33,297 bases of DNA from contig JAJDAE010000211.1 in NCBI GenBank assembly GCA_029262035.1, positions 1 through 33,297 of the forward strand, given 5' to 3'. The stretch is from Candidatus Zhuqueibacterota bacterium. GTDB lineage: Bacteria; Zhuqueibacterota; Zhuqueibacteria; Oceanimicrobiales; Oceanimicrobiaceae. The first letter of the stretch is position 1. Every line of letters starts with the position of its first letter. Below, piece after piece: positions 8,818-24,715 of this stretch. The notes beneath the pieces are model-generated. The model was not told where the DNA came from and ran no database searches. It saw only the letters and a program-made list of their open reading frames with translations. A program made the position numbers and the translations under genes.

Positions 8818-11800
8818 CTATTTCACCAAAATCATTTTCCTGGATTGACTAAATTCACCGGCCTTGATACGATAGACGTAAACACCCGATGCGACAGGAA
8901 CCTCATTTTTATCTCTACCATTCCATGAGGTAACATGGTAACCAGATTTTTGTAAATCTCCTTGTACCAAAGTTCTCACTTCACGCCCCAAAAGATCAAA
9001 AATCCGAATCGTTACTTTTTCTTCAGCGGGCAATCCATATCGTATTGAGGTACTCGGATTAAAAGGATTGGGAAAGTTCTGAGATAATTCAAATTTTTCA
9101 GGAACTAAGCTGACATCTGCCAACGCTTGCTCGACAAAATCACCACTGCCAATAAATAATTTTAATTCTTTTAAAGTTATACTCGTACCCGTCACAAAAG
9201 CATAATTATCGCGTTCACGTAAATTTCTGGTTACATTAAGCTTTTCATCGAACAACACTATTTCAAGGTCGGCCGGAATTTGCTCGAGTCCTGAGAATTG
9301 AACCCTCGCTTCGGAATTGGCTATATTGGTTTTAACGTGAACGGTGAGTTCCTGGCCATTACCAATATCATTTCTAAAATCAGTGGTATAATTATTTGAA
9401 AATCTACCCCAATCTTTTTGAGGGAAATAGACCGAAACATAATTTCCAAACGGAGGCGGCTCAGGCGAATCCAGACGATCAAACTTAACACTCGCTTCTT
9501 CATTCACGCCAAAATAATTGTAGTCATCTCTCGCTTCGCCACAACTGGATAAAATCTGTAATTTCCATGAATCCTGAACGGTTTGCTTGCTTAATTTTGA
9601 AACATTAATGTCAACCTGCTTTGGCGGCATCAATAACGTTTCAACACTGTCTTCATGATTAAAAACAAAAAGGCCCGTGTATTGCTCTATCGTGTTGGGC
9701 ATTATATACTGCGCACCACGAAATTCATAAGGTGCACTAATTAAAGGTTCACCACTTTCAGACATAACATCATCCCATCCCACTTCAAAGGCAAACGGGT
9801 TGGCAATCTGATTCCACCCGGGCTGGAGTTCCAGCTCAAAAGGTTTATCCCCAGGCGTCGAAACACCGGAGCCAAATTCAAGCACCAGTTCATTTGCTGA
9901 AATCAGCCAATAGGCTGCGCCCGGTGTGAAACGAAATGAATCTGCATTTGCCGAATCTCTTTCAACATATGCGCCATCCTCATATTTATAGAGTCGCCAG
10001 CTTGTGGTGTCGTAAGCGCTGAATCCGGAATGGGCAAAAATGGAATCCGCCAGAGTTTGAGCCAGATTGTTTGGCGATGAAATCATTCGGTATCCGGTCT
10101 GGTTGACTGAAGAACGAATCAACTTAACCTGGGTACCCGCTTCAAAATTTACGGATACAAAAAATGTGTCGGATGAGCCAACCACATCGATGTTATCCGT
10201 GCCCGAGACGAAATAACTAACACCGCGTGAAGTAACAAAATTTGGTGGAACGGTTCCTTCATATCTATTTGAACCGATAGCCTGCATATCGATGGTTGAA
10301 TAAGACAAGCCACCACCAATTTTATAATTCAGTGTAACTTCTTGCACACCGCTTACATCTGTCGCAGTTGTCACCACTCTTAATGAATCCCCGCTATCAA
10401 GTTCAACTGTTACATCCGGGTTTAATTCCGGACCCAATGATGGCGAGATCGTAAAGGTCGCGCTTTCGCCAATTATAAACGGCGCTTCAACTGCGGTTAT
10501 TCTGATCTTGCAATTATTTGAAGCACTTCCTGACAAGGAGTTAATCGTAAAACTGCCGACCGCCGGGTCAGAATTGGGTTGTTCGTTTAAAGGAATAATC
10601 TCCGAACCATCGATTATCAATTCAATCTTTAGTCTCTCAATCTCCGCCGTTGCAGTCCAATTAATTACTTTCTGGCTACCGAGTTCCCAATTTACTCCGG
10701 AGACGGGCGAGCTTATGCTAATTTCCCTGAACTCGCCAATAACGCCTGTTTTGCTGATTCGCTGTGCGTAAATATCTTTATCAATTCCGGTGTTACGCGT
10801 ATCTTCCCAAACTGCAATTACGCCACCAAGATCATCTGCTGTAAGAACAGCATTTGCTTGTTTCCCTGAAGCAGTTGAAACAGCCAAACCAGTTGATGTC
10901 CAGAGTGTGTTTCCAGACATATCAACGGCCTGTGCGTAGATATCCGGGGTTGTGTTTCGTTTATCTTCCCAGACAACAACCACCTTATCATCCACAGGAT
11001 AAATTACAGGATTTAATTGAGAAGCCGGCGGAATGACCGTCATCGGGACATCACCAAGTGGCCAAAAAGCGCCTGCACTATCAATTCTTTGAACATGTAC
11101 CGTCGTATCAAACCTGGTAGTATTAATATTTTCCCAGACAAGATATGCGCCGTTTTGACGATCTGTTACGGCTCTCAAATTTCTCTTCTTGCCCGGGGTA
11201 GAATTGATCAACTCCGTGAAAGAGTCATCCCAAACCGGACTGCCTTCAGCGTTATAACGAGCTGCGGTTATGAATTGATCCTGGCCTTCAGATATACTTT
11301 TAATCCAAAAAATAATCGCACCTTCATTGCCGTCAGAAACAATTGTAGGAAACGTACTCATTGCAACTTTTAAATCAACGGGAAACTCTCCCACTCCCCA
11401 TTGCGAGCTGTTTTCATCGACACCGTTTACAAAAGTTAAGGTATCATTTCGGGCATCTGTCCATGCTGCAATCAACCCGCCATTTATAGCGGGAACAACA
11501 GCAGGTCTAAATTCATGCAGCTTACCCGTAGCATTAAGATTAATAATTTCCTGCCGGCCATCAAAAACACCAAACTGCTTTTGGCCATTTTGTGTATTTA
11601 TTCTTTGCCAACTAATAACATCATCGAAACCAGACTTAAAATAAGATGATGTAAGCACTCGTGTACCACTTAAAAATATAACGGGAGGAAGATTGTCCGA
11701 AGTATGCGCCAGGGTTGCGGATGCCCAAACCGGTAACCCATTGAAACCATATTTTTGTACATAGATTTCATTGTCAATTGTCCCCCGTAAGTCTTGCCAC

Positions 11801-12159
11801 GCAAGATAAAAATTACCATCGGGGGAAGCAACAATCGCCGGCGCTTTTTGATCTTCCATAGCATCAGCCAGTGGCCTTCCGCCAGTTGACCACACCAGCT
11901 TTGCCACCTCATCGATGCGCATACCGTAAACATCTGTACCGTTAACATTTAACCCACGCGCATCCTGCCAAACGATAATCGCCCCTTTATTAAAATCTCT
12001 TACTACTGCAGGTGAAGTCTGATTACTGCCACCTATCGTGATAATCGCATTATTTGCATTTGGGTCTTTCGACCATTGCGCGATGCTGTCTTTTGCAAAA
12101 ATCAAAAAAAGTACACAAAAACTTAGGTTGAGGCTCAATAACGCTTTGCTTTTCTTCAT
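8818..12159 (-). CDS. Large secreted repeat protein, Kre9-like domain, type IX sorting tail
   Basis: 1113-residue surface protein, the largest in the window. A signal peptide covers about 1-27. Residues 28-470 are made of about eight propeller-like repeats carrying W-(Q/E/T)-D-x-R and IYAQR/YGMR motifs (IIVWQDARG, LAWQDLRG, AAWTDARND, VVWEDKRNT, AVWEDTRNT). About 480-570 resembles a Kre9/KNH-type Ig-like domain (SISSPVSGVNWELGSQKVIN, KIRITAV). Further beta-sandwich regions follow, then the type IX tail with LSQNFPNPFNPSTSIRYGL, SGVYVYRI and KMILVK. It should be exported to the cell surface, probably as an adhesin or matrix protein; no catalytic motif was recognised. It is the first gene of a minus-strand pair and its promoter should lie in the AT-rich gap above 12160. 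Confidence 0.85.
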   Translation of the reverse strand: MKKSKALLSLNLSFCVLFLIFAKDSIAQWSKDPNANNAIITIGGSNQTSPAVVRDFNKGAIIVWQDARGLNVNGTDVYGMRIDEVAKLVWSTGGRPLADAMEDQKAPAIVASPDGNFYLAWQDLRGTIDNEIYVQKYGFNGLPVWASATLAHTSDNLPPVIFLSGTRVLTSSYFKSGFDDVISWQRINTQNGQKQFGVFDGRQEIINLNATGKLHEFRPAVVPAINGGLIAAWTDARNDTLTFVNGVDENSSQWGVGEFPVDLKVAMSTFPTIVSDGNEGAIIFWIKSISEGQDQFITAARYNAEGSPVWDDSFTELINSTPGKKRNLRAVTDRQNGAYLVWENINTTRFDTTVHVQRIDSAGAFWPLGDVPMTVIPPASQLNPVIYPVDDKVVVVWEDKRNTTPDIYAQAVDMSGNTLWTSTGLAVSTASGKQANAVLTADDLGGVIAVWEDTRNTGIDKDIYAQRISKTGVIGEFREISISSPVSGVNWELGSQKVINWTATAEIERLKIELIIDGSEIIPLNEQPNSDPAVGSFTINSLSGSASNNCKIRITAVEAPFIIGESATFTISPSLGPELNPDVTVELDSGDSLRVVTTATDVSGVQEVTLNYKIGGGLSYSTIDMQAIGSNRYEGTVPPNFVTSRGVSYFVSGTDNIDVVGSSDTFFVSVNFEAGTQVKLIRSSVNQTGYRMISSPNNLAQTLADSIFAHSGFSAYDTTSWRLYKYEDGAYVERDSANADSFRFTPGAAYWLISANELVLEFGSGVSTPGDKPFELELQPGWNQIANPFAFEVGWDDVMSESGEPLISAPYEFRGAQYIMPNTIEQYTGLFVFNHEDSVETLLMPPKQVDINVSKLSKQTVQDSWKLQILSSCGEARDDYNYFGVNEEASVKFDRLDSPEPPPFGNYVSVYFPQKDWGRFSNNYTTDFRNDIGNGQELTVHVKTNIANSEARVQFSGLEQIPADLEIVLFDEKLNVTRNLRERDNYAFVTGTSITLKELKLFIGSGDFVEQALADVSLVPEKFELSQNFPNPFNPSTSIRYGLPAEEKVTIRIFDLLGREVRTLVQGDLQKSGYHVTSWNGRDKNEVPVASGVYVYRIKAGEFSQSRKMILVK

Positions 12160-12724: not shown

Positions 12725-13330
12725 CTGCATAGACTATTAAGACATCAGCTCGGCATTGCATTTCTGGTTTTATTTTACCAAATAGGCTATTGTCAAGATG
12801 CAGAGTTAAAAGTCGAGGTAGAAACCTCAACCGGGGTTTTTGCCTTCGACAAGAGTCTTTCATATAATAATAGTCAGTCTTTTGGGTTAGGCACAGGTTA
12901 TAACATCCGGCGCTTTCTTCAGCTTAACTTGTCTTTCTTTTTTATACCTACCCAACAGCATATAGCACAAGCGGCATCTGTTCAAAAAGTAAAGTATAAG
13001 ATTTATCATTATTCGGCAAACTTTAGGGTTATGAGTCCGCGATCGTTTTTGAGCTTCAAATCATATTTTATGCTTGGGCTCGGCGGCATTATCATCAACC
13101 CTGAAGCAGTCACCTTAGATTTAGGATTAGGCAATAGCATGACAATAGAACCACAGATTGACAAAAAATTCTCCGGGAATATAGGACTCGGACTTATAAG
13201 GCAAATAACAAAACGCATGGCCGCAGAGTTGAAGGCTCAGAGGTATTTTTTTAATCTGCAAGACACAAACAATAACAGAATCCATGCAAACAACAATTAC
13301 TTCGGAGTAGGTTTAATCTGGATGTTTTAA
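12725..13330 (+). CDS. Outer-membrane beta-barrel protein, start unresolved
   Basis: About 201 residues in the coding frame. It opens with a good signal peptide (LRHQLGIAFLVLFYQIGYCQ) and continues as amphipathic strands to a terminal Phe (GVGLIWMF), the usual signature of a small outer-membrane barrel. The frame has no ATG, GTG or TTG between the stop at 12644-12646 and the TTG at 12929, which lies well inside the mature protein. The coordinate given uses a CTG. A well-placed ATG at 12717, 12 bases after AAGGGG, is in another frame and stops after seven codons; a one-base indel near 12735 would join it to this frame. It may thus use a rare start, be frameshifted or hold a sequence error. It leads a three-gene group of barrels (gap 22 bases). 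Function unknown. Confidence 0.6.
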   Translation: MHRLLRHQLGIAFLVLFYQIGYCQDAELKVEVETSTGVFAFDKSLSYNNSQSFGLGTGYNIRRFLQLNLSFFFIPTQQHIAQAASVQKVKYKIYHYSANFRVMSPRSFLSFKSYFMLGLGGIIINPEAVTLDLGLGNSMTIEPQIDKKFSGNIGLGLIRQITKRMAAELKAQRYFFNLQDTNNNRIHANNNYFGVGLIWMF

Positions 13331-13352: not shown

Positions 13353-14240
13353 ATGAACTATTTAGATAAGATGAAATTCTGGGGACTAATTCTTTTGGCT
13401 TTCATATTTTTACTGATGCTGAACAAAAACGCTTACTCGCAAAGGGCGATTATAAAAACGGATAACGTGAAAATTTACTCGTTACCAATGGTCGACACCC
13501 CGGTGGCGGTATTAACCAAAGGCGACACGATTCGAGTGATTGGGCAACGCGGCGACTGGGTGAAAATACAGATAGGCAGAAACCTCAAAGGCTGGATGCT
13601 GCTTGAAGTGAAAAGTTTATCAGGGAACTCACCTGCCAGCACCATAAAAAAAGAAAAACCGTCCAGACAACCTTCAATAGCTTCAACAAATAGTAAAGCA
13701 GAAAACAGCTCCACAAACGGTCCAGCCAATGGCACCCATAACCCGAAACCTTTTTCCCCGGATTTAATCCGTAAAAAGCCGAATTCCATTCAAGGCAACG
13801 AAACTTACCGTAGATTTGGCTATACATTTGGCGCCGGCCTCTTGGCAACAGACTTCACCTACAACTGGAAATTCATTTTCCACCAGACCCCGAGAATGGC
13901 GCTTGAGGGCTCTTTTAAACATGCTCTTGGTGAAGCAGCGAGCTCCTATTTTATCTTTGCAAATTTGAACTATTTGTTGACAGCAAACATCCGTAAAAAA
14001 TTTCTGCCTTTTGCCACTGCCGGTGTTGGCATTATTAACACCGTACCGGAAAATAGTATTGATGTCGGGCAAGGCGTCTCGAATATGGCAATCAATTACG
14101 GCATTGGCGCCAGAAAATACTACCGAAAAAAACTGTCGCTCCTCTTCAATGTGTCTCAATACTCAGTTTTCATCGGAAAAGGAGTCAGTCATTTCAAAGA
14201 ATTTACAGTCGGACTTTTAGTCGGAAAATTTTGGGACTAA
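13353..14240 (+). CDS. SH3b domain plus outer-membrane beta-barrel
   Basis: 295-residue exported protein. An N-terminal hydrophobic signal (about 10-29, ending AYSQ) precedes a bacterial SH3 domain at about 30-90 (VKIYSLPMVDTPVAVLTKGD, GDWVKIQIGRNLKGWM). A Ser/Asn/Pro/Lys-rich linker covers about 90-150, and from about 155 amphipathic strands look like an outer-membrane beta-barrel (GYTFGAGLLATDFTYNWKF, LPFATAGVGIINT, LLVGKFW). Inference: the SH3b domain sits in the periplasm and binds peptidoglycan while the barrel sits in the outer membrane, tying the two layers together. It shares an operon-like arrangement with barrel genes on either side (22 and 19 bases). No enzyme motif was seen. Confidence 0.7.
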   Translation: MNYLDKMKFWGLILLAFIFLLMLNKNAYSQRAIIKTDNVKIYSLPMVDTPVAVLTKGDTIRVIGQRGDWVKIQIGRNLKGWMLLEVKSLSGNSPASTIKKEKPSRQPSIASTNSKAENSSTNGPANGTHNPKPFSPDLIRKKPNSIQGNETYRRFGYTFGAGLLATDFTYNWKFIFHQTPRMALEGSFKHALGEAASSYFIFANLNYLLTANIRKKFLPFATAGVGIINTVPENSIDVGQGVSNMAINYGIGARKYYRKKLSLLFNVSQYSVFIGKGVSHFKEFTVGLLVGKFWD

Positions 14241-14259
14241 TAATTTTGGAGATATTTTG

Positions 14260-14814
14260 GTGAAAAACTTAAAATACATCATAACATATATATTTTTTAT
14301 AAAAATTATCATTCTTGCAGCCAATGCAAATTTATTTGCACAAGTATCTTCAAGAGAGCATGAACTGTATCCGCACACCGGACTTTATGCAGCAGATAGA
14401 TTTCAAAATTCATTGAATTTAGGCGTCGTGTACGATTATCATTTCGACCGACGACTTTCAATGGGGGCGTCTTTTGGCTTTGCACGCGCCGGCCAGGAAT
14501 ATGTGCAAAAGGTGCTTTCAGCGGCACCGGAGCAAGGCAGTTCAACTGTACTTTATTACAACGGCAGAATTACCTATGCTGTGCCTTTTGGCAAAATCAT
14601 TCCCTACGGCATTACGGCGTTAGGTGTTACACGTCAGCACTCAGAATCAAATCTCACCTTTAGCCTGGGAATCGGCACGAAGTTCCCTATTGGCAAAACA
14701 ACATACTTGAGATACGAAATCAACGATCACATTTTTTCCAGCGGTAAAGATAACACCTCATGGACAAATAACAACATGGAGTTTTCGATTGGGGTTTCTT
14801 TTTTCTTACAGTAA
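14260..14814 (+). CDS. Small outer-membrane beta-barrel protein
   Basis: 184 residues. A signal peptide of about 28 residues ends NLFAQ, followed by eight or so alternating strands typical of OmpW/OmpX-like barrels (LNLGVVYDYHFDRRLSMGAS, GRITYAVPFGKIIPYGITAL, LTFSLGIGTKFPIG, FSIGVSFF). GTG at 14260 is chosen as start because GGAG at 14248-14251 is eight bases upstream; the TTG one codon earlier is possible. It is the last of three linked barrel genes and lies 134 bases before the HzsA-like operon, so readthrough into that operon is possible. Nothing identifies a substrate. Confidence 0.7.
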   Translation: MKNLKYIITYIFFIKIIILAANANLFAQVSSREHELYPHTGLYAADRFQNSLNLGVVYDYHFDRRLSMGASFGFARAGQEYVQKVLSAAPEQGSSTVLYYNGRITYAVPFGKIIPYGITALGVTRQHSESNLTFSLGIGTKFPIGKTTYLRYEINDHIFSSGKDNTSWTNNNMEFSIGVSFFLQ

Positions 14815-14948: not shown

Positions 14949-16883
14949 ATGAAAAAGCTCCAGAACAACATCAGAGACAACGAGCGAGGAAGAACATTTT
15001 CTGTTCGTTTATATAGATTCGCTCTAATCGGACTACTAGGCTTTTTTATAGCCTGTTCCGGTAGTGTGCCGGATGATATCATCCAGGAAGAGTCGCCCAC
15101 CGGGATAATATTTGTGAAGGCAACCAGATCCAGCACCTTAAATCATTTCAGCCGGGGTGGTAATTTATTTTCACTTATTCCGGCGTCACCAGACGGCAAG
15201 TTAACCAATTTAACCAATCTGGAAGAAGGCGATGTGTCCGATCCGGAAATTTCTTACGATGGTTTAAAAGTGCTGTTTTCCATGCGTCGAAACAGTGGTG
15301 ACACATTCAGTATTTATGAAATGAACGTCGACGGAACCGGACTGAACCAAATCACCAACAGCCAGCAGCATGATGACCACGACCCGGTCTATTTGCCTAA
15401 CGGCAAAATTCTATTTACATCTAACCGTCCGGGATTCACAGACGAGTACAACCGGCAAGATGCCGAAGTTATGCACACCATGAATAGAGACGGTTCAAAT
15501 ATCGAATGTATTTCATTTAATGCAAGCGATGACTTTGATCCGTTGGTAATGGCTGATGGCCGTATTCTCTACACACGCTGGGAACATCACGGCCCAATTA
15601 ACCGCTTTCCGCTATTTTTCACCCATCCGGATGGCCATGGCACATTTACATTTTTCAGTCCGCACAATATGAGAACACTCTTCCATCCACGTGAAATGCC
15701 AGATGGTTCCATTGTTGCGATTCACTCAAACATGGTTAATGGCGACCGCGGTCAGGTTGTCATCATCAAAGATCACTCAACTGCCGGAGAGCCTCTGGAA
15801 GACGGTTTTGTTGAAATTTTGACGCCGGATATTGAGACCAGCGGCCCGCCCTATGCAAAAGGTGTTTTCAAATATCCACACCCGTTGCCGGACGGACGGC
15901 TTCTGGTATCTTTTGCGCCCAAGTTTGGTGAATTTGAAGATTCAAACGGCGATGTAATTGAAGACATAAAACCGGATTATGGCCTGTACACCATGCAAAC
16001 CAACGGCGGCGATTTGCGGCTTCTTTATAATGATCCCGATACTGAAGAATATGATGCAGTTGTGATTGGAGAAAGGCCCATTCCGCAAGTCATCCCTTCT
16101 GTGCTTGATAAATCTCAAAGTACCGGTACCATCACTGTGGTAGATGCCTACTTCCGCCAAAATCGTGATGGACAAGTGGTTCCCGACAAGTCAACTCAGG
16201 ACATTAAACAGGTCATGCTGATTGAAGGGATCCCCAGAGTCAAGGGAGACCGTGCAACAATTGGCGAAACTAATTTCGAGCAGAAAAGAATAATCGGAAC
16301 AGCACCCGTGCAGCCCGATGGCTCTTTTTCAATACAAGTGCCCACCAATATTCCACTTTCATTTAACACACTGGATGAATTAGGGCGTGCGCTGGTGGTT
16401 AAAAGAAACTGGGTAACCGTCCGTCCCGGTGAAATAATCGCAGGTTGCCCGGGCTGTCACGGTCCGCGCGGCAAACATTCTGAAGTGACCAATCCAATCG
16501 CGGCTACACTTCCGCCGACTGACTTAAATATTTCGGAGAATCTACGCGAAGATGTCAGTTTTAGCTTTGCAATTGAGCCAATTATTGCAGACAAATGCGC
16601 AACTTCCGGGTGTCACGCAGGAACCGCGCCTGCCGACAGCCTAGATCTCACGTTGATAAAATCTATTGAAGAGCCGCTTTTTTCGAATGCATATATGAAC
16701 CTCATGGAAGGCAGAAATCTAGTACGTGAGCCGTTTTCACGCCGCAGCAGACTTATTAATAAGTTGATTGGCCTCGAGCCATTCGAGGGAGCCGGCAAAC
16801 ATCCGGGCGGTGCAGAAGCTCTCACGGATGATGAGCTACGTAAATTCATTAATTGGATTGACCTCGGCGCTCAGTACAGGTAA
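14949..16883 (+). CDS. HzsA-related propeller lipoprotein with two c-type heme motifs
   Basis: 644-residue lipoprotein resembling the alpha subunit of hydrazine synthase, a family that also has many members outside anammox bacteria. The N-terminal signal ends GFFIAC, predicting lipidation. Residues about 60-330 are PD40/TolB-like propeller blades (MNVDGTGLNQITNS, LPNGKILFTSNRPG). The family-specific middle region follows (YAKGVFKYPHPLPDGRLLVS, ERPIPQVIPS, QPDGSFSIQVPTNIPLSF). Heme motif one is CPGCH at residues 500-504. The second, CATSGCH at 550-556, is a CX4CH variant. AGGAGA at 14937-14942 fixes the start at 14949. It heads a five-gene operon with TlpA, DUF4266 and DUF3570. Without HzsB/HzsC subunits it is very unlikely to make hydrazine; a periplasmic redox role is inferred. 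Confidence 0.78.
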   Translation: MKKLQNNIRDNERGRTFSVRLYRFALIGLLGFFIACSGSVPDDIIQEESPTGIIFVKATRSSTLNHFSRGGNLFSLIPASPDGKLTNLTNLEEGDVSDPEISYDGLKVLFSMRRNSGDTFSIYEMNVDGTGLNQITNSQQHDDHDPVYLPNGKILFTSNRPGFTDEYNRQDAEVMHTMNRDGSNIECISFNASDDFDPLVMADGRILYTRWEHHGPINRFPLFFTHPDGHGTFTFFSPHNMRTLFHPREMPDGSIVAIHSNMVNGDRGQVVIIKDHSTAGEPLEDGFVEILTPDIETSGPPYAKGVFKYPHPLPDGRLLVSFAPKFGEFEDSNGDVIEDIKPDYGLYTMQTNGGDLRLLYNDPDTEEYDAVVIGERPIPQVIPSVLDKSQSTGTITVVDAYFRQNRDGQVVPDKSTQDIKQVMLIEGIPRVKGDRATIGETNFEQKRIIGTAPVQPDGSFSIQVPTNIPLSFNTLDELGRALVVKRNWVTVRPGEIIAGCPGCHGPRGKHSEVTNPIAATLPPTDLNISENLREDVSFSFAIEPIIADKCATSGCHAGTAPADSLDLTLIKSIEEPLFSNAYMNLMEGRNLVREPFSRRSRLINKLIGLEPFEGAGKHPGGAEALTDDELRKFINWIDLGAQYR

Positions 16884-16897
16884 AAAGGGGAAGTAAA

Positions 16898-17431
16898 ATG
16901 AATTTAAAAACAATACTAATTCTGGTACTTTTTTCGGCGACACCTTTGGCCGCTAAACAGCCACTAATCGGCACAAAGGCAATTAACTTCACGCTTAAAA
17001 AGTTTGACGGCACCAAACTAACCCTCAGCAATTTGCGTGGCAAAGTTGTACTGTTGGATTTCTGGGCGAGTTGGTGTGCACCCTGCCGCGAAGAACTACC
17101 GTTTCTTGATCTTCTAAACAACAGATATGGCAACAAAAACTTCGAAGTGGTGGCCGTAAACATTGACAACAATCCCGAAAAAGCTTACGGATTTCTGAAA
17201 ACGCTCTCTGTAAAATTAAACCCGGTTTGGGATGAAAAAAAACAAGTGGTTAGCGCCTACGATGTCGGAACCATGCCAACAACCTTCATCATCGATAAAG
17301 AAGGCTGGATTCGCTTCGTCCACTCGGGATTTAAGGCAGAACAGTTTGTTGAGTACAAAAAACAAATCGAACTTTTACTGCACCAAAATGCCCCCAAAAG
17401 GCCAGGAAATACCGCTTCGCGGAAAAAATAA
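16898..17431 (+). CDS. TlpA-family thioredoxin-like protein
   Basis: 177-residue exported thioredoxin-fold protein of the TlpA/ResA group. A signal peptide covers about 1-19. The active site WASWCAPC has cysteines C60 and C63, and the conserved cis-proline loop reads GTMPTTFIID. These proteins keep cysteines reduced in the periplasm, for example in apocytochrome c before heme attachment. It starts 14 bases after the di-heme HzsA-like gene, with a GGGGAAG ribosome site, and 12 bases before the Cys-tailed DUF4266 gene. That placement suggests it reduces the cysteines of one or both neighbours (inference). Confidence 0.92.
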   Translation: MNLKTILILVLFSATPLAAKQPLIGTKAINFTLKKFDGTKLTLSNLRGKVVLLDFWASWCAPCREELPFLDLLNNRYGNKNFEVVAVNIDNNPEKAYGFLKTLSVKLNPVWDEKKQVVSAYDVGTMPTTFIIDKEGWIRFVHSGFKAEQFVEYKKQIELLLHQNAPKRPGNTASRKK

Positions 17432-17443
17432 AGGAGTTGGAAG

Positions 17444-17674
17444 ATGCGAGATATTATACTTGTTTTTGTTGCAGGCTTAACCATGGTCATTTTCAGTTTA
17501 CTGTTCAGTGGGTGTGTTGCTGTAAAACCGTATGAACGTGAAAACCTCGCTGACCGCATTATGGACTTTGACGCCATCGCGGCAGAAAGCGGTATGGAGC
17601 GCCATTTTCTGGAAACCCGGGAGGGCAGTTCCGGAGGCCACGGCGGTTCAGGTGGTGGATGTGCTTGTAATTAA
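17444..17674 (+). CDS. DUF4266 mini-lipoprotein with Gly/Cys tail
   Basis: 76-residue DUF4266 protein. A hydrophobic signal ends LLFSGC, so Cys24 is probably lipidated and the mature chain is only about 53 residues. The family core KPYERENLADRIM follows directly. The chain ends in a flexible Gly/Ser/His stretch and the dipeptide-spaced cysteines of GGGCACN, the conserved end of this family. GGAG precedes the start. Function is unknown. The two tail cysteines beside a TlpA gene could bind a metal or cofactor, form a disulfide, or be modified, but no modifying enzyme is visible. DUF4266 and DUF3570 genes usually occur together, as here. Confidence 0.85.
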   Translation: MRDIILVFVAGLTMVIFSLLFSGCVAVKPYERENLADRIMDFDAIAAESGMERHFLETREGSSGGHGGSGGGCACN

Positions 17675-17707
17675 CACAAATTTCAACCCAAATAAATGGT
17701 AAGTTTT

Positions 17708-18814
17708 ATGAAATCGGCAATTATTAAAACAACATCATGCGCGCTGCTTCTTACATTTACTTCGGTAATTTGGGGCGATGAAAAATTCAGTCTGCGGACA
17801 AACCTTTTCAATGACAACACCGGGACAACCGTACAGTCTCCCGCGCTGGAAGTTATAAAAGACCTTGCCGGACAAATTGAGTTTGTCTTGCGGTACACGC
17901 TGGATCGGGTAATCATTCCACCTATCCGGGGCCTGGCCGCAACCCCAACAGCAGACGCCATTACCGGCGCTTCCAGACCCGTTGACGATGGCAATGCCGC
18001 CAATAAATCTTTTGCAAAAGATCGCAATGAATTCAACCTGGGTTTTTCTTTGCCCGGGTTCAGCGGTAGCTACTACTACAGCACCGAGAGCGATTATATC
18101 GGCAGGATGGCTACGGTCTCTGCTAACATTGACTTTAATCAGAAGAACACCAACCTCTCGGGTTTTTACAGCTACGGTTGGGACGATATAAGTCCTTTGG
18201 GCGCTGATACTTCCCACACCAAAATCGCGCACGCTGGTAACATCACTCTGACTCAGGCGTTGAGTCCCACGGTCATCGCGCGTATTGGCGCTGATATTTC
18301 TCTGCATGACGGGTTTCAAAGTAATCCGTACAGAACGGTAAATGCGGGCGGACAAATTTTGCCTGAAAACCACCCGTTGCAGCGCACACGCGGCTCGGTG
18401 TTTTTTAAGGTGAACCGCTATTTCGACACCGAGACATCTTTGAACATGGAATACCGCTACTATCAGGATGACTGGGAAGTCAAATCTCACACACTTGGTT
18501 TTTACTTCCATCAATACTTTAATGACAAAGTATTGATTCGCTACCGCTACCGCTACTACCAGCAAACACAGGCCGAATTTTATCGTAAAACTTACCCCAT
18601 CGTTCAACCGTTCATGACTTCCGATTATAAAATGGAAAAGTTTAATGCGCACTTATTTGGCTTCAAGGTTGAATACAAACTGAAAGATTTACTCAAGGAT
18701 GGTGTTCTTTCTTTCATGTCTTCTTCAATTCTCGATGTCAAATATGAACGATACTTTTCATCGAATGATTTTACCGCAGATATTTTTCAATTTGGACTTG
18801 TCTTTAACTACTAA
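17708..18814 (+). CDS. DUF3570 outer-membrane protein
   Basis: 368-residue DUF3570 protein. A signal peptide covers about 1-21. Next comes the family opening LRTNLFNDNTGTTVQSPAL and a region with IIPPIRGLAATPTADAITGAS. The rest is a long series of amphipathic strands rich in Tyr and alternating polar residues (YYYSTESDYIGRMATVSANI, LNMEYRYYQDDW, LIRYRYRYYQQ), ending FGLVFNY with an aromatic terminus. This predicts an outer-membrane beta-barrel. The ATG at 17708 gives the better signal peptide; one at 17696 is possible. Family function is not established. In the usual cluster it accompanies DUF4266, a thioredoxin and often ApbE; ApbE is missing here. Confidence 0.85.
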   Translation: MKSAIIKTTSCALLLTFTSVIWGDEKFSLRTNLFNDNTGTTVQSPALEVIKDLAGQIEFVLRYTLDRVIIPPIRGLAATPTADAITGASRPVDDGNAANKSFAKDRNEFNLGFSLPGFSGSYYYSTESDYIGRMATVSANIDFNQKNTNLSGFYSYGWDDISPLGADTSHTKIAHAGNITLTQALSPTVIARIGADISLHDGFQSNPYRTVNAGGQILPENHPLQRTRGSVFFKVNRYFDTETSLNMEYRYYQDDWEVKSHTLGFYFHQYFNDKVLIRYRYRYYQQTQAEFYRKTYPIVQPFMTSDYKMEKFNAHLFGFKVEYKLKDLLKDGVLSFMSSSILDVKYERYFSSNDFTADIFQFGLVFNY

Positions 18815-18831
18815 AATAGGGGACAAAAACT

Positions 18832-21435
18832 ATGAAACGAAATAAATATATAAAAATACCATTCACATTGGGTGTAATGATTTTAAGCATGGCTATGTTT
18901 GGAGATAATTCACAAACCAGCCTGGAATCAATGGGATTTTCCCGGGCAAAAATCAATGAGACCGCTCTGGTGGAATTGGCCGTTGACCAATTGAGAACAA
19001 GTATTAAAACCGGGAACATGGCTCAGCTTAAAGCCATAATCTCCGGCGATTTACAAAAAAGTGTTTCAAAAGGGGAAAACGCACAGCTATCACTCAATTC
19101 TGGTAAAGAGAATGTCATATTTGATTCAATTAATTCACATCTCCTGCCGAAAATAAAACTACGGACAACTAGAATCGCTCTACAAGACAAGCGCGCAGTT
19201 GTTTATGGAAATATTGAAGTGGGATCTGAATCGACTACGACTACGGAGCTGACCTTCGCGAAAGAAAACGACATGTGGAAACTTGTATCTGATAATGAGT
19301 TACTTACGAACCTGGAAGCTGAATTACGAAATGCGACCCCCGAAGATGACACCGAACAGTCCGTTATTGAACTCTACGCCGACGATGGAGCCGAAAATCG
19401 AACGATCGCACTGCGCGCTATGAGCGATGAGCACAGCATTCAAAAGCTCACCAAGTCCGTTACACAAAACAAGCTTAACCGCAATCTGTTTAAAAACCCT
19501 TATGCCGGCGTTCTTTTTTCATCGGTCACACAATCAGACCATGCGCCATTCTTCACTGCCCAATATGTTCAACTGGTAACCGACCCCGCCTGGAATCGCG
19601 TGGTTTATGGAGATTACGAGGGTTGGGTTAAAGCGTACAGAAACGGCAATTCTGAAATAGAAGCGCTAAAAAGTCCGCACGGAATTGACCGCGATGCCGA
19701 TGGCAATATTTACATCGCCGATACCGGCAACAACCGAATCGTGGTTTTGAAACTTGAGGGCTCTGAAGGAGAGACCGAATTAAATTATCAATTTTCTTTT
19801 GGCAAAGACAATTTGAGTCTACCCTACGATGTGGCTTGGGATGATTCAGGTACTCCGCTGAGAAACAGTGATGACATCATCTGGGTAACCGATACCGGCA
19901 ATCACCGCATTCTCGGATATTCGTTAAACGAAAAATCTGCTGAACAAAAATTCAGTTATGGCAGCAACGGCAATGCAGAGGGCGAGTTCTTTGAGCCGAC
20001 CTCAATTGCCGTGGGTAAATTTAACGGAGCAGGCAACGGTCAACTTTACGTTGGCGATGCAGGCAACCGCAGAGTTGCCCATCTTTCGGTTAAACCCAAT
20101 AACATGCAATGGCTCGGTAGTTTCGAAAATAAAGAAGAGAGCCAGTTTACAGCGGTGGAAGTGGACCATTGGGGCAACGTTTTTGTAACCGACCGCAGCT
20201 ACCGTGAAATCATTAAACTCACACCAACTCTCAAAACCCTGACAACCATCAAAGGTGAGGCAAACGCTCTTGTCGACCCGGCCAACATCCATGTAATTTT
20301 TGGAAAAGTAACCATTGAGTCCGAAAATAAAACTTACTGGTCCGGCTACGATCAAGCTTTCTCACTGGAAAAATGGGCGGAAAATTCCGGCGCAGAACGT
20401 TATAATTTAGGTACCGATTTTGCAAACTATAATCTAACGCTTAGCGAAGATTTAGCACACCTCTATGTAAATGGAACCTTAACTGACAATAGCAAAGTAT
20501 CTGTCGCCATCGTCGATGCGGCCACGAACTCAACTGTCAAACAAATTTCCATGGGTTGGCTTATTGCCGGTGATAAACAAGTTAGCTGGAACAGAACCGA
20601 CGATCTCGGCTGGCAGGTTAAACCAGGGCAGTACAAGTTACAACTCACCGCAGAATCCGGTTATGGCGGCAAAATCCTAAAGGAGTCCTCAAATTTCTAT
20701 TTGCCGCTTTACTACAACGAAGATAGCGGCGCAGACAAAAAACAGGATGAACATCTCGTACAAGGAACAGCAAATTCTGAATGGGGCACCGCACCATTCG
20801 AGACAATAGCAAAACATCCCTCGGAAGTCATTTACCGCTTCACGGATTTAAATCCGGCAATTGAATATGAATTTAAGGCAGACTTTTTTAACAAGGTAGG
20901 CTACGATCTGAAGCAATCGATTCATGTTAATCAAACACAGGTAGTTCAAGAGGCGGAAATACCTGCTGGATTTAAAAGCGTGAATTGGACCGCGCTTCCG
21001 AGGGAAACTTTTAGCGATGGAACCGTTGAAATTCGCTTCAAAAAAGAATCGGGCGAAGGCGACGCCATGGTCTCACAACTTTGGCTGCGTGAGTCCGACT
21101 TCAATGCGGAGAACACCCCGGACCAGAAAACCATTTCAGCCAGCATCCCCAAAGAATATACACTGAGGCAAAATTACCCGAATCCATTCAACCCGACAAC
21201 CAATATAGAATTTGGTGTTCCGGAGGGAATTGTCAATAATGTGACCTTACGTATTTACAATACACTTGGTCAGACAGTCGCCGTTCTGATGAACGGACAA
21301 CTTCCCCCGGGACGCCATACTATTGTATGGAACGGCCGCGATAATTTAGACCGGCAGGTTTCCAGCGGCGTTTATTTTTACCAATTCAAAGCCGGCAAAC
21401 ATTCTGAAGTTAAAAAAATGATTCTGATGAAATAA
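18832..21435 (+). CDS. Secreted NHL-repeat propeller, type IX sorting tail
   Basis: 867-residue exported protein and last gene of the operon, 17 bases after DUF3570. After a signal peptide (about 1-24), residues about 40-165 look like an NTF2/SnoaL-type domain (ALVELAVDQLRTSIKTGNMA, MWKLVSDNELL). Residues about 265-490 form an NHL propeller (SPHGIDRDADGNIYIADTGN, IIWVTDTGNHRILGY, LYVGDAGNRRV, WGNVFVTDRSYREI). A FlgD-like segment and a further beta-domain precede the type IX tail (LRQNYPNPFNPTTNIEFG, SSGVYFYQFKAG, KMILMK). It should be displayed on or released from the cell surface. Its position makes it the exported arm of the HzsA-like/TlpA/DUF4266/DUF3570 unit, an unusual association. No catalytic residues were recognised. 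Confidence 0.85.
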   Translation: MKRNKYIKIPFTLGVMILSMAMFGDNSQTSLESMGFSRAKINETALVELAVDQLRTSIKTGNMAQLKAIISGDLQKSVSKGENAQLSLNSGKENVIFDSINSHLLPKIKLRTTRIALQDKRAVVYGNIEVGSESTTTTELTFAKENDMWKLVSDNELLTNLEAELRNATPEDDTEQSVIELYADDGAENRTIALRAMSDEHSIQKLTKSVTQNKLNRNLFKNPYAGVLFSSVTQSDHAPFFTAQYVQLVTDPAWNRVVYGDYEGWVKAYRNGNSEIEALKSPHGIDRDADGNIYIADTGNNRIVVLKLEGSEGETELNYQFSFGKDNLSLPYDVAWDDSGTPLRNSDDIIWVTDTGNHRILGYSLNEKSAEQKFSYGSNGNAEGEFFEPTSIAVGKFNGAGNGQLYVGDAGNRRVAHLSVKPNNMQWLGSFENKEESQFTAVEVDHWGNVFVTDRSYREIIKLTPTLKTLTTIKGEANALVDPANIHVIFGKVTIESENKTYWSGYDQAFSLEKWAENSGAERYNLGTDFANYNLTLSEDLAHLYVNGTLTDNSKVSVAIVDAATNSTVKQISMGWLIAGDKQVSWNRTDDLGWQVKPGQYKLQLTAESGYGGKILKESSNFYLPLYYNEDSGADKKQDEHLVQGTANSEWGTAPFETIAKHPSEVIYRFTDLNPAIEYEFKADFFNKVGYDLKQSIHVNQTQVVQEAEIPAGFKSVNWTALPRETFSDGTVEIRFKKESGEGDAMVSQLWLRESDFNAENTPDQKTISASIPKEYTLRQNYPNPFNPTTNIEFGVPEGIVNNVTLRIYNTLGQTVAVLMNGQLPPGRHTIVWNGRDNLDRQVSSGVYFYQFKAGKHSEVKKMILMK

Positions 21436-21483: not shown

Positions 21484-21519
21484 GAGGCCTCGGATATATT
21501 ATCCGGGGCCTCATTTTTT
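21484..21519 (+). terminator. Rho-independent terminator of the HzsA-like operon
   Basis: A 13-base-pair stem (GAGGCCTCGGATA at 21484-21496 with TATCCGGGGCCTC at 21500-21512, one G-U pair), a three-base loop, then ATTTTTT. It lies 48 bases after the NHL-protein stop and closes the plus-strand operon. No T-tract exists on the other side, so it acts on one strand only. Confidence 0.92.
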
Positions 21520-21660: not shown

Positions 21661-21770
21661 ATGAAAAAAATATTAACATTAATGATAAGTTTCTCTCTGA
21701 GGGATTTTGAAACCCAGTCAGAATCATTTGCTTACCGCAATAACGTCATTTTTCCGGTAAAGGATTTCTG
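21661..21770 (+). pseudogene. Possible truncated secreted-protein start
   Basis: A 36-codon frame opens like a signal peptide (MKKILTLMISFSL) and then loses that character, running into the 3' end of the convergent M6 protease gene. No Shine-Dalgarno is seen. It may be the remnant of a deleted secreted-protein gene, or chance in AT-rich DNA. Confidence 0.25.
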
Positions 21771-23765
21771 AGTTAAAGAGGCCCTGATGATTTCAAAACG
21801 GTAAACGTAAACCCCCGAAGACGCATCCCTACCGTTAGTATCTTTGCCATCCCAGATTACCGAATGAAACCCAGCCGGCAAGACAGTATTGTTTAGTTCT
21901 CGCACATGCTCTCCCCGTACATTGTAAATAATCAAGCGAACTTGTGAAGACTCAGGCAATTCAAAGCGGATTTTGGTTTCGGGGTTGAAAGGGTTGGGAT
22001 GGTTTTGTGAAACCCGAAATATATTGGGTACGGCAACATTCTCCATCTCGAAATAATTCTTTGGCAAGGTATTGCTGCCAACCCAATCCTCACCGGAATA
22101 ATCGGATTCATTGTCAGCGTCATCTACGGCAGTAGCACGATAATGCACAGACGATGTTGTTGAGGTATTGATGGTGGTAGAATTGTCTATCCAGCTGGTG
22201 CTAGTTGTGGTAGTTACCGGATTATTACCCCATGAAATTGCCTGAGGCCATGAATCTTTATAGCCACGGTATATAGCGTAGTGATTCAAGTCGGGTTCGG
22301 AGTTAGCATCCCATTTTACTACCGGCTTCGCACCGTTGCTCGTTCGGTTGGGGATATACAGATTTTGTGGACGATCGGGCGGAGCATCTAGTGTTACGTC
22401 CAAAGTAATATCACTGCTTTGTTCCTGGATATCAAGGATGGCAACATCGGTGAATGTACTATTTCGGGTGGTAGAATTGGGTATTGTCCAAGGGGTGAAA
22501 TTATCTTGGGTGATTTGTTTAAAAGGATCAGTGCTGCTGCCTCCACCGAGTGATGTCGGGCTTCCTCCGTTTGCTCGTTCGATATATAATTGACCCGAAT
22601 AGGAACTTTTGTTTGGCGCAATATGTGAGATAAGCAACCCTGTTCCCGGCAATTGTTTGTCACAGTTATCGTTACCATCGCTCTGGTCCTGGTCAGCCCA
22701 AAACGTACGTTGACGGTTTTCTATAAGAAAATACTCTCCATTTTGTATCGCTACCTTATAAATATCCGATGTTGTTATGGACTCCGTAAGAACTAAATTG
22801 ATTGAATCGCCTAAAATCGTCCTCGGGGATATCCAGCCAAGAAGTTCACGCTCATAAGCGGACATTGATTGACCAGCGCCACCATTATCCATCAACCCCC
22901 AATTGCCTATATTATTAAAGTGAAATCCCCCTTTGAAACCATAAAATCGATGCGCATATTCATGCGCAATAAGTAATACAAATCCTTTGTGATCAACAGT
23001 ATTTGTAATTACACCAGATCCCTTCTGGAAGGAACCGTCAATATTTAATCCGTCGACTTGGAAAGAACCAAAATTGGTAGAACTGCTGTTCGATACACCA
23101 TCAAGATTTGATATTCCACTGAAACCTGGTTGAAAATGAAACCTAAAGGCAAGTATAATCATGTCGAACTTACCATCAGATTGCCTAATGGTTGTGCCAT
23201 TTTTGTAGTCGTCAAAACTCGATAGATCTATTCCCTCTGGGTTATTGTCAACGAAAGTCAAAATTTCTCTATTTACCGCAATCCATTCATTTGAAAAGCT
23301 GTGATTGGCCAAATTTTCGTACCAGCTTCTTGAGTGTACAGGGACTACCAATTCAGGATAGACCTCACCAACTAAATGAAAATCGCCGTGAGTGCCATCG
23401 TTGCGATCTCTAGACATTTTGCAAAAATAGTCTGTTAAACTATTCTCTGAATGTGTTCCTGAGCTTGTTTCATCGATCACTGACAAACCCCAAGAAGGGA
23501 TGTCGGCTCGGTCATAAGGCCACTCTGTTGCGGAATCGGTTGTGCATCGGCTTCCATCATCAGGTGTTGGCGGGTTTGAACCGAACGTATCATCGCTAAA
23601 CTGAACAAAAATAATTAAGGCTTTACTTGTTCCAGTAGTTGGTACAAATGGGCCTGCCTGTGAAGACGCAGCGTTCATTGTGCAATAGGGTGCTGTGTCT
23701 TCAGAAAAGGCATATTCATTTACGCCCCAAAAGGTAAAGATACAACAAATTAGAAAATAGATCAT
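21732..23765 (-). CDS. M6-family metalloprotease, type IX sorting tail
   Basis: 677-residue secreted zinc protease of the M6 (immune inhibitor A-like) family. A signal peptide covers about 1-20. The catalytic domain, about 40-380, contains IIFVQFSD, SLTDYFCKMS and the zinc site HEYAH at residues 268-272 with catalytic Glu269. WGLMDNGG downstream is the likely Met-turn region. About 440-560 is a fibronectin-III-like domain (APPDRPQNLYIP, DLNHYAIYRGYKDSWP, HYRATAVDDADNESDYSG). The C-terminus is a type IX sorting domain (VSQNHPNPFNPETKIRFEL, SSGVYVYRFE, KMTLLR). No large propeptide is evident. AAGGA eight bases before the ATG supports the start. It lies 38 bases downstream of the small CTD gene and is probably cotranscribed with it. 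Likely role: extracellular protein degradation. Confidence 0.9.
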   Translation of the reverse strand: MIYFLICCIFTFWGVNEYAFSEDTAPYCTMNAASSQAGPFVPTTGTSKALIIFVQFSDDTFGSNPPTPDDGSRCTTDSATEWPYDRADIPSWGLSVIDETSSGTHSENSLTDYFCKMSRDRNDGTHGDFHLVGEVYPELVVPVHSRSWYENLANHSFSNEWIAVNREILTFVDNNPEGIDLSSFDDYKNGTTIRQSDGKFDMIILAFRFHFQPGFSGISNLDGVSNSSSTNFGSFQVDGLNIDGSFQKGSGVITNTVDHKGFVLLIAHEYAHRFYGFKGGFHFNNIGNWGLMDNGGAGQSMSAYERELLGWISPRTILGDSINLVLTESITTSDIYKVAIQNGEYFLIENRQRTFWADQDQSDGNDNCDKQLPGTGLLISHIAPNKSSYSGQLYIERANGGSPTSLGGGSSTDPFKQITQDNFTPWTIPNSTTRNSTFTDVAILDIQEQSSDITLDVTLDAPPDRPQNLYIPNRTSNGAKPVVKWDANSEPDLNHYAIYRGYKDSWPQAISWGNNPVTTTTSTSWIDNSTTINTSTTSSVHYRATAVDDADNESDYSGEDWVGSNTLPKNYFEMENVAVPNIFRVSQNHPNPFNPETKIRFELPESSQVRLIIYNVRGEHVRELNNTVLPAGFHSVIWDGKDTNGRDASSGVYVYRFEIIRASLTQKSFTGKMTLLR

Positions 23766-23803: not shown

Positions 23804-24706
23804 TTACTTTAAAAAAAAGAGGATTTTCTGAACACTCATTTTGTTTTTTAAAGATAGCGAGTAAACATATGGTCCTGACGCTACTAAAAAACCACTTTCG
23901 TTTCTTCCCTTCCACTTTAGAGTATGAATACCTGAGTTCTCAAAGTCTTGCTTTAACAGCTTAACTCTCTGACCATTCAAATTAAATACTTCAACTCGAA
24001 TCTCGGATGCTTGAGCAAGTGTGTATACAATAGTAGTAGTGCTATTGAAGGGATTGGGATAGCTCTGCAAAAAGTTCGCTTCAAACTTTGCTTCAGGAGG
24101 CTTATGCTTCACAGAAGTAATATTTCCCATTCTTACACTATCTATGATCGCTCCCTGAAGTTCGATGTCAACGCCCTCAAATCCCTCAAACACCACGCCA
24201 ATACTATCTACCAGGATATATTCCGTTCGGAACCCCAATGGTATAGAGTCTGGGAGAGTAAATGACTCTATCTTGACAAATTTATGTGATTTGGAGAAAA
24301 AAACGGCCTCGCCAATTTGAGTTACCTGGGAGAAGCCAGAGTCAGAAGGATTTCCAAAAAGCGGGAAATTCCAGGCATCACCGAAACTAATGTTGAGTTT
24401 GAACAGCAGGAATTCATCAGAGTGAGAAGTATTGAACTGATATACATTGTCAGCGCTATCAACTCTTTGAAAAACCTGTCTTAGTCCAAAAGGCGATTTT
24501 TTTTCGATTCTGCGGTAAGCGCGGCCATTGGGAAAGAGGGTGTCTCCAATTACTTTTCGCGTTTCCTGTGTAATCAACACGCCATTGTTTTCATTGCGGC
24601 GATATTCCCAAAAGTCATTGGTGTTGAGTGGATAATAAAATGAACCTTGCATATCTTGAGCAAATAAATTGCAAAAGAAAGGGAGTAGTAACAATAGCCT
24701 TTTCAT
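23804..24706 (-). CDS. Small secreted protein of unknown function, type IX sorting tail
   Basis: 300-residue secreted protein. The ATG at 24706 is chosen over a GTG at 24715 because GGAGAGG then sits at proper spacing and the signal peptide begins cleanly (MKRLLLLLPFFCNLFAQ). The mature part, about 18-205, begins FYYPLNTNDFWEYR, a pattern common in FCB secreted proteins, and appears to be all-beta; no enzyme motif is seen. The type IX tail follows (LQSYPNPFNSTTTIVYTL, SGPYVYSL, KILFFLK). The sorting motif deviates from its neighbours at two positions, QS for QN and NS for NP. It is the first gene of a pair with the M6 protease; whether it assists that protease is unknown. Confidence 0.8.
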   Translation of the reverse strand: MKRLLLLLPFFCNLFAQDMQGSFYYPLNTNDFWEYRRNENNGVLITQETRKVIGDTLFPNGRAYRRIEKKSPFGLRQVFQRVDSADNVYQFNTSHSDEFLLFKLNISFGDAWNFPLFGNPSDSGFSQVTQIGEAVFFSKSHKFVKIESFTLPDSIPLGFRTEYILVDSIGVVFEGFEGVDIELQGAIIDSVRMGNITSVKHKPPEAKFEANFLQSYPNPFNSTTTIVYTLAQASEIRVEVFNLNGQRVKLLKQDFENSGIHTLKWKGRNESGFLVASGPYVYSLSLKNKMSVQKILFFLK

Positions 24707-24715
24707 GAAAAACAC

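Follow-up and report, generated by a model that had tools for sequence, protein, structure and literature searches.

A conserved Cys-X-Cys tail on a DUF4266 lipoprotein encoded with a TlpA-like thioredoxin, a DUF3570 barrel and a hydrazine-synthase-alpha-like heme protein

The lipoprotein gene and its operon

The window analyzed here is a 33,297-nt stretch of contig JAJDAE010000211.1 from a Candidatus Zhuqueibacterota bacterium. It holds an operon, all on the forward strand, in the order OMP, SH3-OMP, OMP, hydrazine-synthase-alpha (HZS-alpha)-like diheme lipoprotein, TlpA, DUF4266, DUF3570 and NHL/T9SS protein. The DUF4266 gene (17444-17674) has an ATG start preceded by a Shine-Dalgarno-like AGGAG and encodes 76 residues that match Pfam DUF4266 (PF14086) over profile positions 1 to 50 of 50, with 67.7 bits against a cut-off of 27. 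Its lipobox, LLFSGC, marks Cys24 as the lipid-bearing residue, so that this small secreted protein would have a mature form of 53 residues (Cys24 to Asn76). The C-terminus reads GSSGGHGGSGGGCACN and includes the Gly-rich tail GGSGGGCACN (17642-17671), in which the codons of Cys73 (17660-17662) and Cys75 (17666-17668) form a C-terminal CXC, here CAC at residues 73 to 75. A first-pass annotation of this DNA had described a small lipoprotein next to a thioredoxin, with a mature peptide of about 53 residues and this same ending; both descriptions agree with our results, as the TlpA gene (16898-17431) lies upstream, separated from the DUF4266 gene by 12 bp.

TlpA, DUF4266 and DUF3570 are contiguous in the window. 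The first is a soluble, periplasmic TlpA/ResA-like thioredoxin with a WCAPC active site and matches to AhpC-TSA and Redoxin; its best NCBIfam match, below the cut-off of that model, is ResA. The DUF3570 gene (17696-18814; PF12094, 144.7 bits) encodes an outer-membrane barrel predicted to be an ApbE substrate. The operon ends with a secreted NHL-repeat protein bearing FlgD_ig and a T9SS sorting tail (18832-21435; found in the same cluster in relatives), after which an intrinsic terminator-like stem of 13 bp with a T-run follows at 21484-21512. Other secreted proteins with FlgD_ig or T9SS-type C-terminal sorting tails are encoded around the operon (753-2063, 8818-12159, 21732-23765 and 23804-24715). 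No apbE was found in the window; two ApbE genes are present elsewhere in the same genome, as is DsbD.

Upstream, the third OMP_b-brl-like gene (12749-13330) starts farther 5' than the TTG listed at 12929. Truncation of this gene was ruled out by tblastn, in which the 201- to 223-residue proteins of relatives align continuously over 12749-13327. It is followed by a protein with an SH3 domain (PF08239) and a barrel-like C-terminus (13353-14240) and by an OMP_myx_plus outer-membrane barrel that is kept in the cluster (14257-14814; TIGR04565, 70.5 bits against a cut-off of 60). SH3 proteins flank DUF4266 in Myxococcota too, where several loci (L094, L098, L101, L104 and L122) have an SH3-domain gene, often barrel-like, directly upstream of DUF4266-DUF3570, which makes it a likely further conserved partner.

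The gene directly upstream of TlpA encodes the HZS-alpha-like diheme c-type lipoprotein (14949-16883; PF18582, 70 bits), which matches hydrazine synthase alpha (PDB 5C2V). Like hydrazine synthase alpha and its non-anammox homologues, it has, one after the other, a propeller, an HZS_alpha middle domain with CxxCH and a heme motif at the C-terminus. The heme motifs of the window protein are CPGCH and CATSGCH, those of its relatives CxxCH and CxxCH, and both motifs and a lipobox-like Cys are conserved among the relatives. The second motif (16596-16616) is thus CX4CH in the window and CxxCH in closely related proteins. A genuine hydrazine synthase was ruled out by the equivalog score (NF052339, 91 bits against a cut-off of 800) and by two absences. 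No Tyr stands four residues after the CxxCH His, where the window reads CPGCHGPRGKH and where Tyr591 of the alpha subunit is an axial heme ligand (PMC12758564), and no beta-gamma subunit gene adjoins the HZS-alpha-like gene, whose neighbors are the OMP and TlpA genes. This is in line with Suarez et al. (2023), who considered the KSB1 genes unlikely to encode hydrazine synthases and pointed to the missing hzs operon, and with Hägglund et al. (2025), who described related homologues without key residues. The isolate names of three of our loci (L079-L081) match metagenome-assembled genomes of Suarez et al. (2023).

Conservation of the tail and linkage of the gene set

DUF4266 sequences were gathered from the loci of relatives with the Pfam model and from 69 genome-contig loci through DUF3570, giving 88 sequences, of which 79 are distinct. 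These come from several phyla, and all 79 have both tail cysteines, although the genome-contig members were found with a profile made from sequences that contain the CXC; this profile gave a match at every locus with enough flanking contig. The residue between the cysteines is exclusively Gly (65) or Ala (14), the CAC form being confined to clusters of the HZS-alpha/TlpA type, and the pair is followed exclusively by N, G or SK. Judged from these alignments, the conservation of the CXC tail is far beyond chance. The invariance that the first-pass annotation had proposed to check is therefore borne out. The histidine that it mentions ahead of the tail (His66) is particular to the window sequence and replaced by Q, N, M, L, I or S in close relatives. 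The conserved histidine of DUF4266 is His54, further upstream, present in 73 of the 79 sequences. A search for gene fusions of TlpA with DUF4266 or of DUF4266 with DUF3570 gave none; the long DUF4266 frames of GC-rich contigs proved to be stop-to-stop artefacts.

The same annotation had proposed the tail as a metal or cofactor ligand. The CXC would then bind Cu(I), Zn or Fe, or belong to a metallochaperone tail, with TlpA keeping it reduced, for instance to deliver metal or to reduce iron at the outer membrane. Together with the largely conserved His54 it could make a thiolate/imidazole site, and some DUF3570 clusters carry the VIT1 iron transporter (PMC8238504). However, His54 lies 19 residues from the CXC and is replaced in 6 of 79 sequences, and the family that strictly neighbors DUF4266 consists of flavoproteins and not of metal transporters. 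His66 was ruled out as a ligand by its lack of conservation, and the cofactor is predicted on DUF3570, which has a conserved ApbE flavinylation motif. We thus regard a metal site as unlikely.

In 75 loci the DUF4266 gene lies no more than 300 bp from a DUF3570 gene of the same orientation, and DUF4266 is found at DUF3570 loci whose flanking contig is long enough. Among 60 relatives, the two families co-occur in 16 of 17 genomes each way (Fisher p = 2e-12). Furthermore, of 13 genomes encoding an HZS_alpha domain, 12 also have DUF4266 (Fisher p = 5e-8), and in these the two are encoded near each other. The remaining genome (G038, of the same class) has five HZS_alpha-domain matches and no DUF4266. 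Genomes from three families that are related to the window's own, the named relatives being KSB1, carry this gene set too, arranged in more than one order. The core of HZS-alpha, TlpA, DUF4266 and DUF3570 also occurs in Latescibacterota (L085), Gemmatimonadota (L086) and Fibrobacterota (L087 and L090). A scan of viral contigs with DUF3570 gave no match.

TlpA or Trx adjoins DUF4266 in canonical and new cluster types alike, and the TlpA CXXC is invariant in relatives, which supports the functional tie between the lipoprotein and the adjacent TlpA put forward in the first pass. A second DUF4266 of the same genome (contig C134, locus L037, 7926-11024) belongs to a canonical Trx-ApbE-DUF4266-DUF3570 cluster, and the DUF3570 encoded there is only distantly related to that of the window. 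In most Myxococcota clusters no TlpA was seen nearby, which speaks against the relay proposed below; in its favor, one Myxococcales contig (L127) combines the two cluster types, with ApbE, DUF4266, DUF3570, TlpA and heme/PD40 genes that overlap or are closely spaced. Divergent HZS-alpha-like multiheme proteins are encoded in other Myxococcota loci (L122, 6257-9238 and 10227-12656; L140; L119) on the strand opposite DUF4266-DUF3570, one of them with a CX6CH motif.

This distribution also bears on the proposal that TlpA and DUF4266 form a dedicated cytochrome c maturation pair, which would keep the CxxCH thiols of the HZS-alpha-like protein reduced for heme attachment. The match to ResA, a heme-maturation thioredoxin, and the direct adjacency of the TlpA and diheme genes would suit such a role. 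The proposal is weakened because canonical clusters pair Trx with DUF4266 and DUF3570 where no HZS-alpha-like gene is encoded (L028-L033, L035 and L037, with Trx or TlpA). Additionally, DUF4266 tracks DUF3570, not HZS-alpha, across phyla, and we consider a maturation pair quite improbable.

The DUF3570 barrel and its flavin sites

In an AlphaFold2 model built with 75 sequences, DUF3570 is a 16-strand barrel (mean pLDDT, 91.5), and Foldseek found it to resemble outer-membrane channels. Site 2, with the motif D-x-x-[ST]-x-A-[ST], is complete in 75 of 75 aligned DUF3570 proteins, although one search pattern contained this motif, so that the site is partly ascertained in the genome-contig members of the clade described below. 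It is kept in all 10 KSB1-group members found by the Pfam-based search, which did not include that motif, and corresponds in the window to the predicted flavinylation motif T90-G-A-S93 (17963-17974).

Site 1 (D-x-V-[ST]-[GA]-A-[ST]), which was part of no search pattern, is present in 57 of the 75 proteins, substituted in 15, with Pro at the Ala position, and deleted in 3. The window protein does not have both sites; in place of site 1 it reads IIPP, within a DRVIIPP segment (residues 70 to 76; 17903-17923) that aligns with DxV[ST]GA[ST] of canonical DUF3570 and is replaced throughout the group of 15. In a tree that left out the motif columns, these 15 proteins form one clade (SH-aLRT 97) and the substitution takes one change, a number as low being reached in 0 of 500 shuffles. 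They make up the HZS-alpha/TlpA-type group: an HZS-alpha-like gene lies within 7 kb in 14, and the fifteenth (L088) has TlpA and DUF4266 only. In a separate Myxococcota lineage (L093, L102 and L106), site 1 was deleted independently, and neither HZS-alpha nor TlpA was detected nearby.

ApbE is encoded elsewhere in 22 of 23 and in 11 of 11 genomes examined, and a single-contig Latescibacterota chromosome has one apbE, far from the cluster. This is weak, permissive evidence because ApbE is common, including in genomes that do not carry DUF4266. From its sequence, the DUF3570 of the window is predicted to carry FMN at one site, attached by ApbE acting in trans. The heme-linked variant with one flavin site and ApbE in trans is present in at least four phyla.

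In the model, site 1 is at the tip of strand 3 and site 2 lies in the 31-residue loop between strands 3 and 4, where confidence is low (pLDDT below 50 at residues 80 to 82 and 84 to 89). If the N-terminus is periplasmic, the loop would be extracellular or folded into the lumen. Since standard topology places it on the extracellular side, contact with a periplasmic arm would require the loop in the lumen or the arm inside the barrel. The Gly-rich DUF4266 tail, of about 16 residues, could span about 50 Å if extended.

A putative relay from thiols to flavin

We propose that the CXC tail is probably a tethered thiol/disulfide arm that ferries electrons between TlpA and the flavin carried by the neighboring DUF3570 barrel. 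DUF4266 would be a lipoprotein anchored in the outer membrane, with a Gly-rich C-terminal arm bearing a redox-active Cys-X-Cys pair. DsbD or CcdA in the inner membrane would feed soluble TlpA, which may exchange thiol/disulfide electrons with the CXC pair. The arm would give electrons to, or take them from, an ApbE-linked FMN on Ser93 of DUF3570, and this flavin could pass them to the hemes of the HZS-alpha-like protein or to an outside acceptor. The diheme lipoprotein and the T9SS-exported NHL protein may constitute the rest of an outer-membrane flavin-heme chain.

The opposite direction of flow would make the system an Erv-like thiol oxidase of the outer membrane, in which electrons pass from the CXC to the flavin and disulfides are made in exported proteins. 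The CXC shuttle arm has its precedent in Erv2 (PMC4019985) and the window encodes many proteins with T9SS tails, but the TlpA/ResA-type partner and the DsbD of published clusters point to reduction, and we give this direction little likelihood. That the tail is instead a site of post-translational modification, as also raised in the first pass, or a RiPP-like peptide is highly improbable: the protein is short, with a Gly-rich C-terminus and cysteines, but the operon has no recognized modification enzyme, and the lipoprotein core of DUF4266, LADxxM included, is conserved and has no leader/core layout.

A broader and more doubtful extension of the relay is that the operon encodes an undescribed outer-membrane conduit, combining thiol/disulfide chemistry (TlpA and the CXC arm), covalent flavin (one-site DUF3570) and c-type heme (the HZS-alpha-like protein). 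The arm would reach inside the barrel to an FMN attached to a loop in the lumen or at the surface, so that electrons would need no multiheme wire to cross the outer membrane. If the chain is as we infer, electrons would be moved to or across the outer membrane via thiols and flavin. The DUF4266 CXC tail gains a specific candidate partner and role, and the flavinylation system a heme-linked branch that is missed by scans for ApbE-containing clusters. The results also place the HZS-alpha-like proteins of KSB1 in an operon; when these were noted in 2023, neither a partner nor a function was given for them.

The closest functional parallel of the arm is yeast Erv2, in which a C-terminal CXC is the shuttle disulfide of a flavoprotein (PMC4019985). 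In both cases a C-terminal CXC pair would relay electrons to a protein flavin, as we infer for DUF4266. The likeness is an analogy in how the two may work and goes no further: unlike the tail of Erv2, DUF4266 is a separate lipoprotein, its predicted electron partner is a covalent FMN on an outer-membrane barrel, and the two have no sequence kinship. The helical FAD-binding domain of Erv/ALR is absent, DUF3570 being a predicted 16-strand barrel.

The system itself is related to that of Méheust et al. (2021), who reported that a DUF3570 protein of Chlorobium luteolum is flavinylated by ApbE at two [S/T]GA[S/T]-like sites and described clusters of ApbE, DUF3570, thioredoxin, DUF4266 and sometimes DsbD (PMC8238504). 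Among the open-access papers searched, we found DUF4266 or DUF3570 mentioned in that one alone. Its authors raised the possibility that the CXC conserved in DUF4266 undergoes redox cycling (PMC8238504), so the core idea of the first-pass annotation was already published; the redox motif of the tail is real and highly conserved, and had been noted before. The window shares with those clusters a DUF4266 with a C-terminal CXC, a DUF3570 with an ApbE-type [S/T]-x-A-[S/T] motif (TGAS, residues 90 to 93) and an adjacent thioredoxin-like protein. In contrast to them, its operon is without ApbE, its DUF3570 has one flavin site and not two, and the operon additionally encodes an HZS-alpha-like diheme lipoprotein, OMPs and a T9SS NHL protein. 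Consequently, while the CXC arm was previously known, its operon with an HZS-alpha-like heme protein and a one-site DUF3570 is apparently new.
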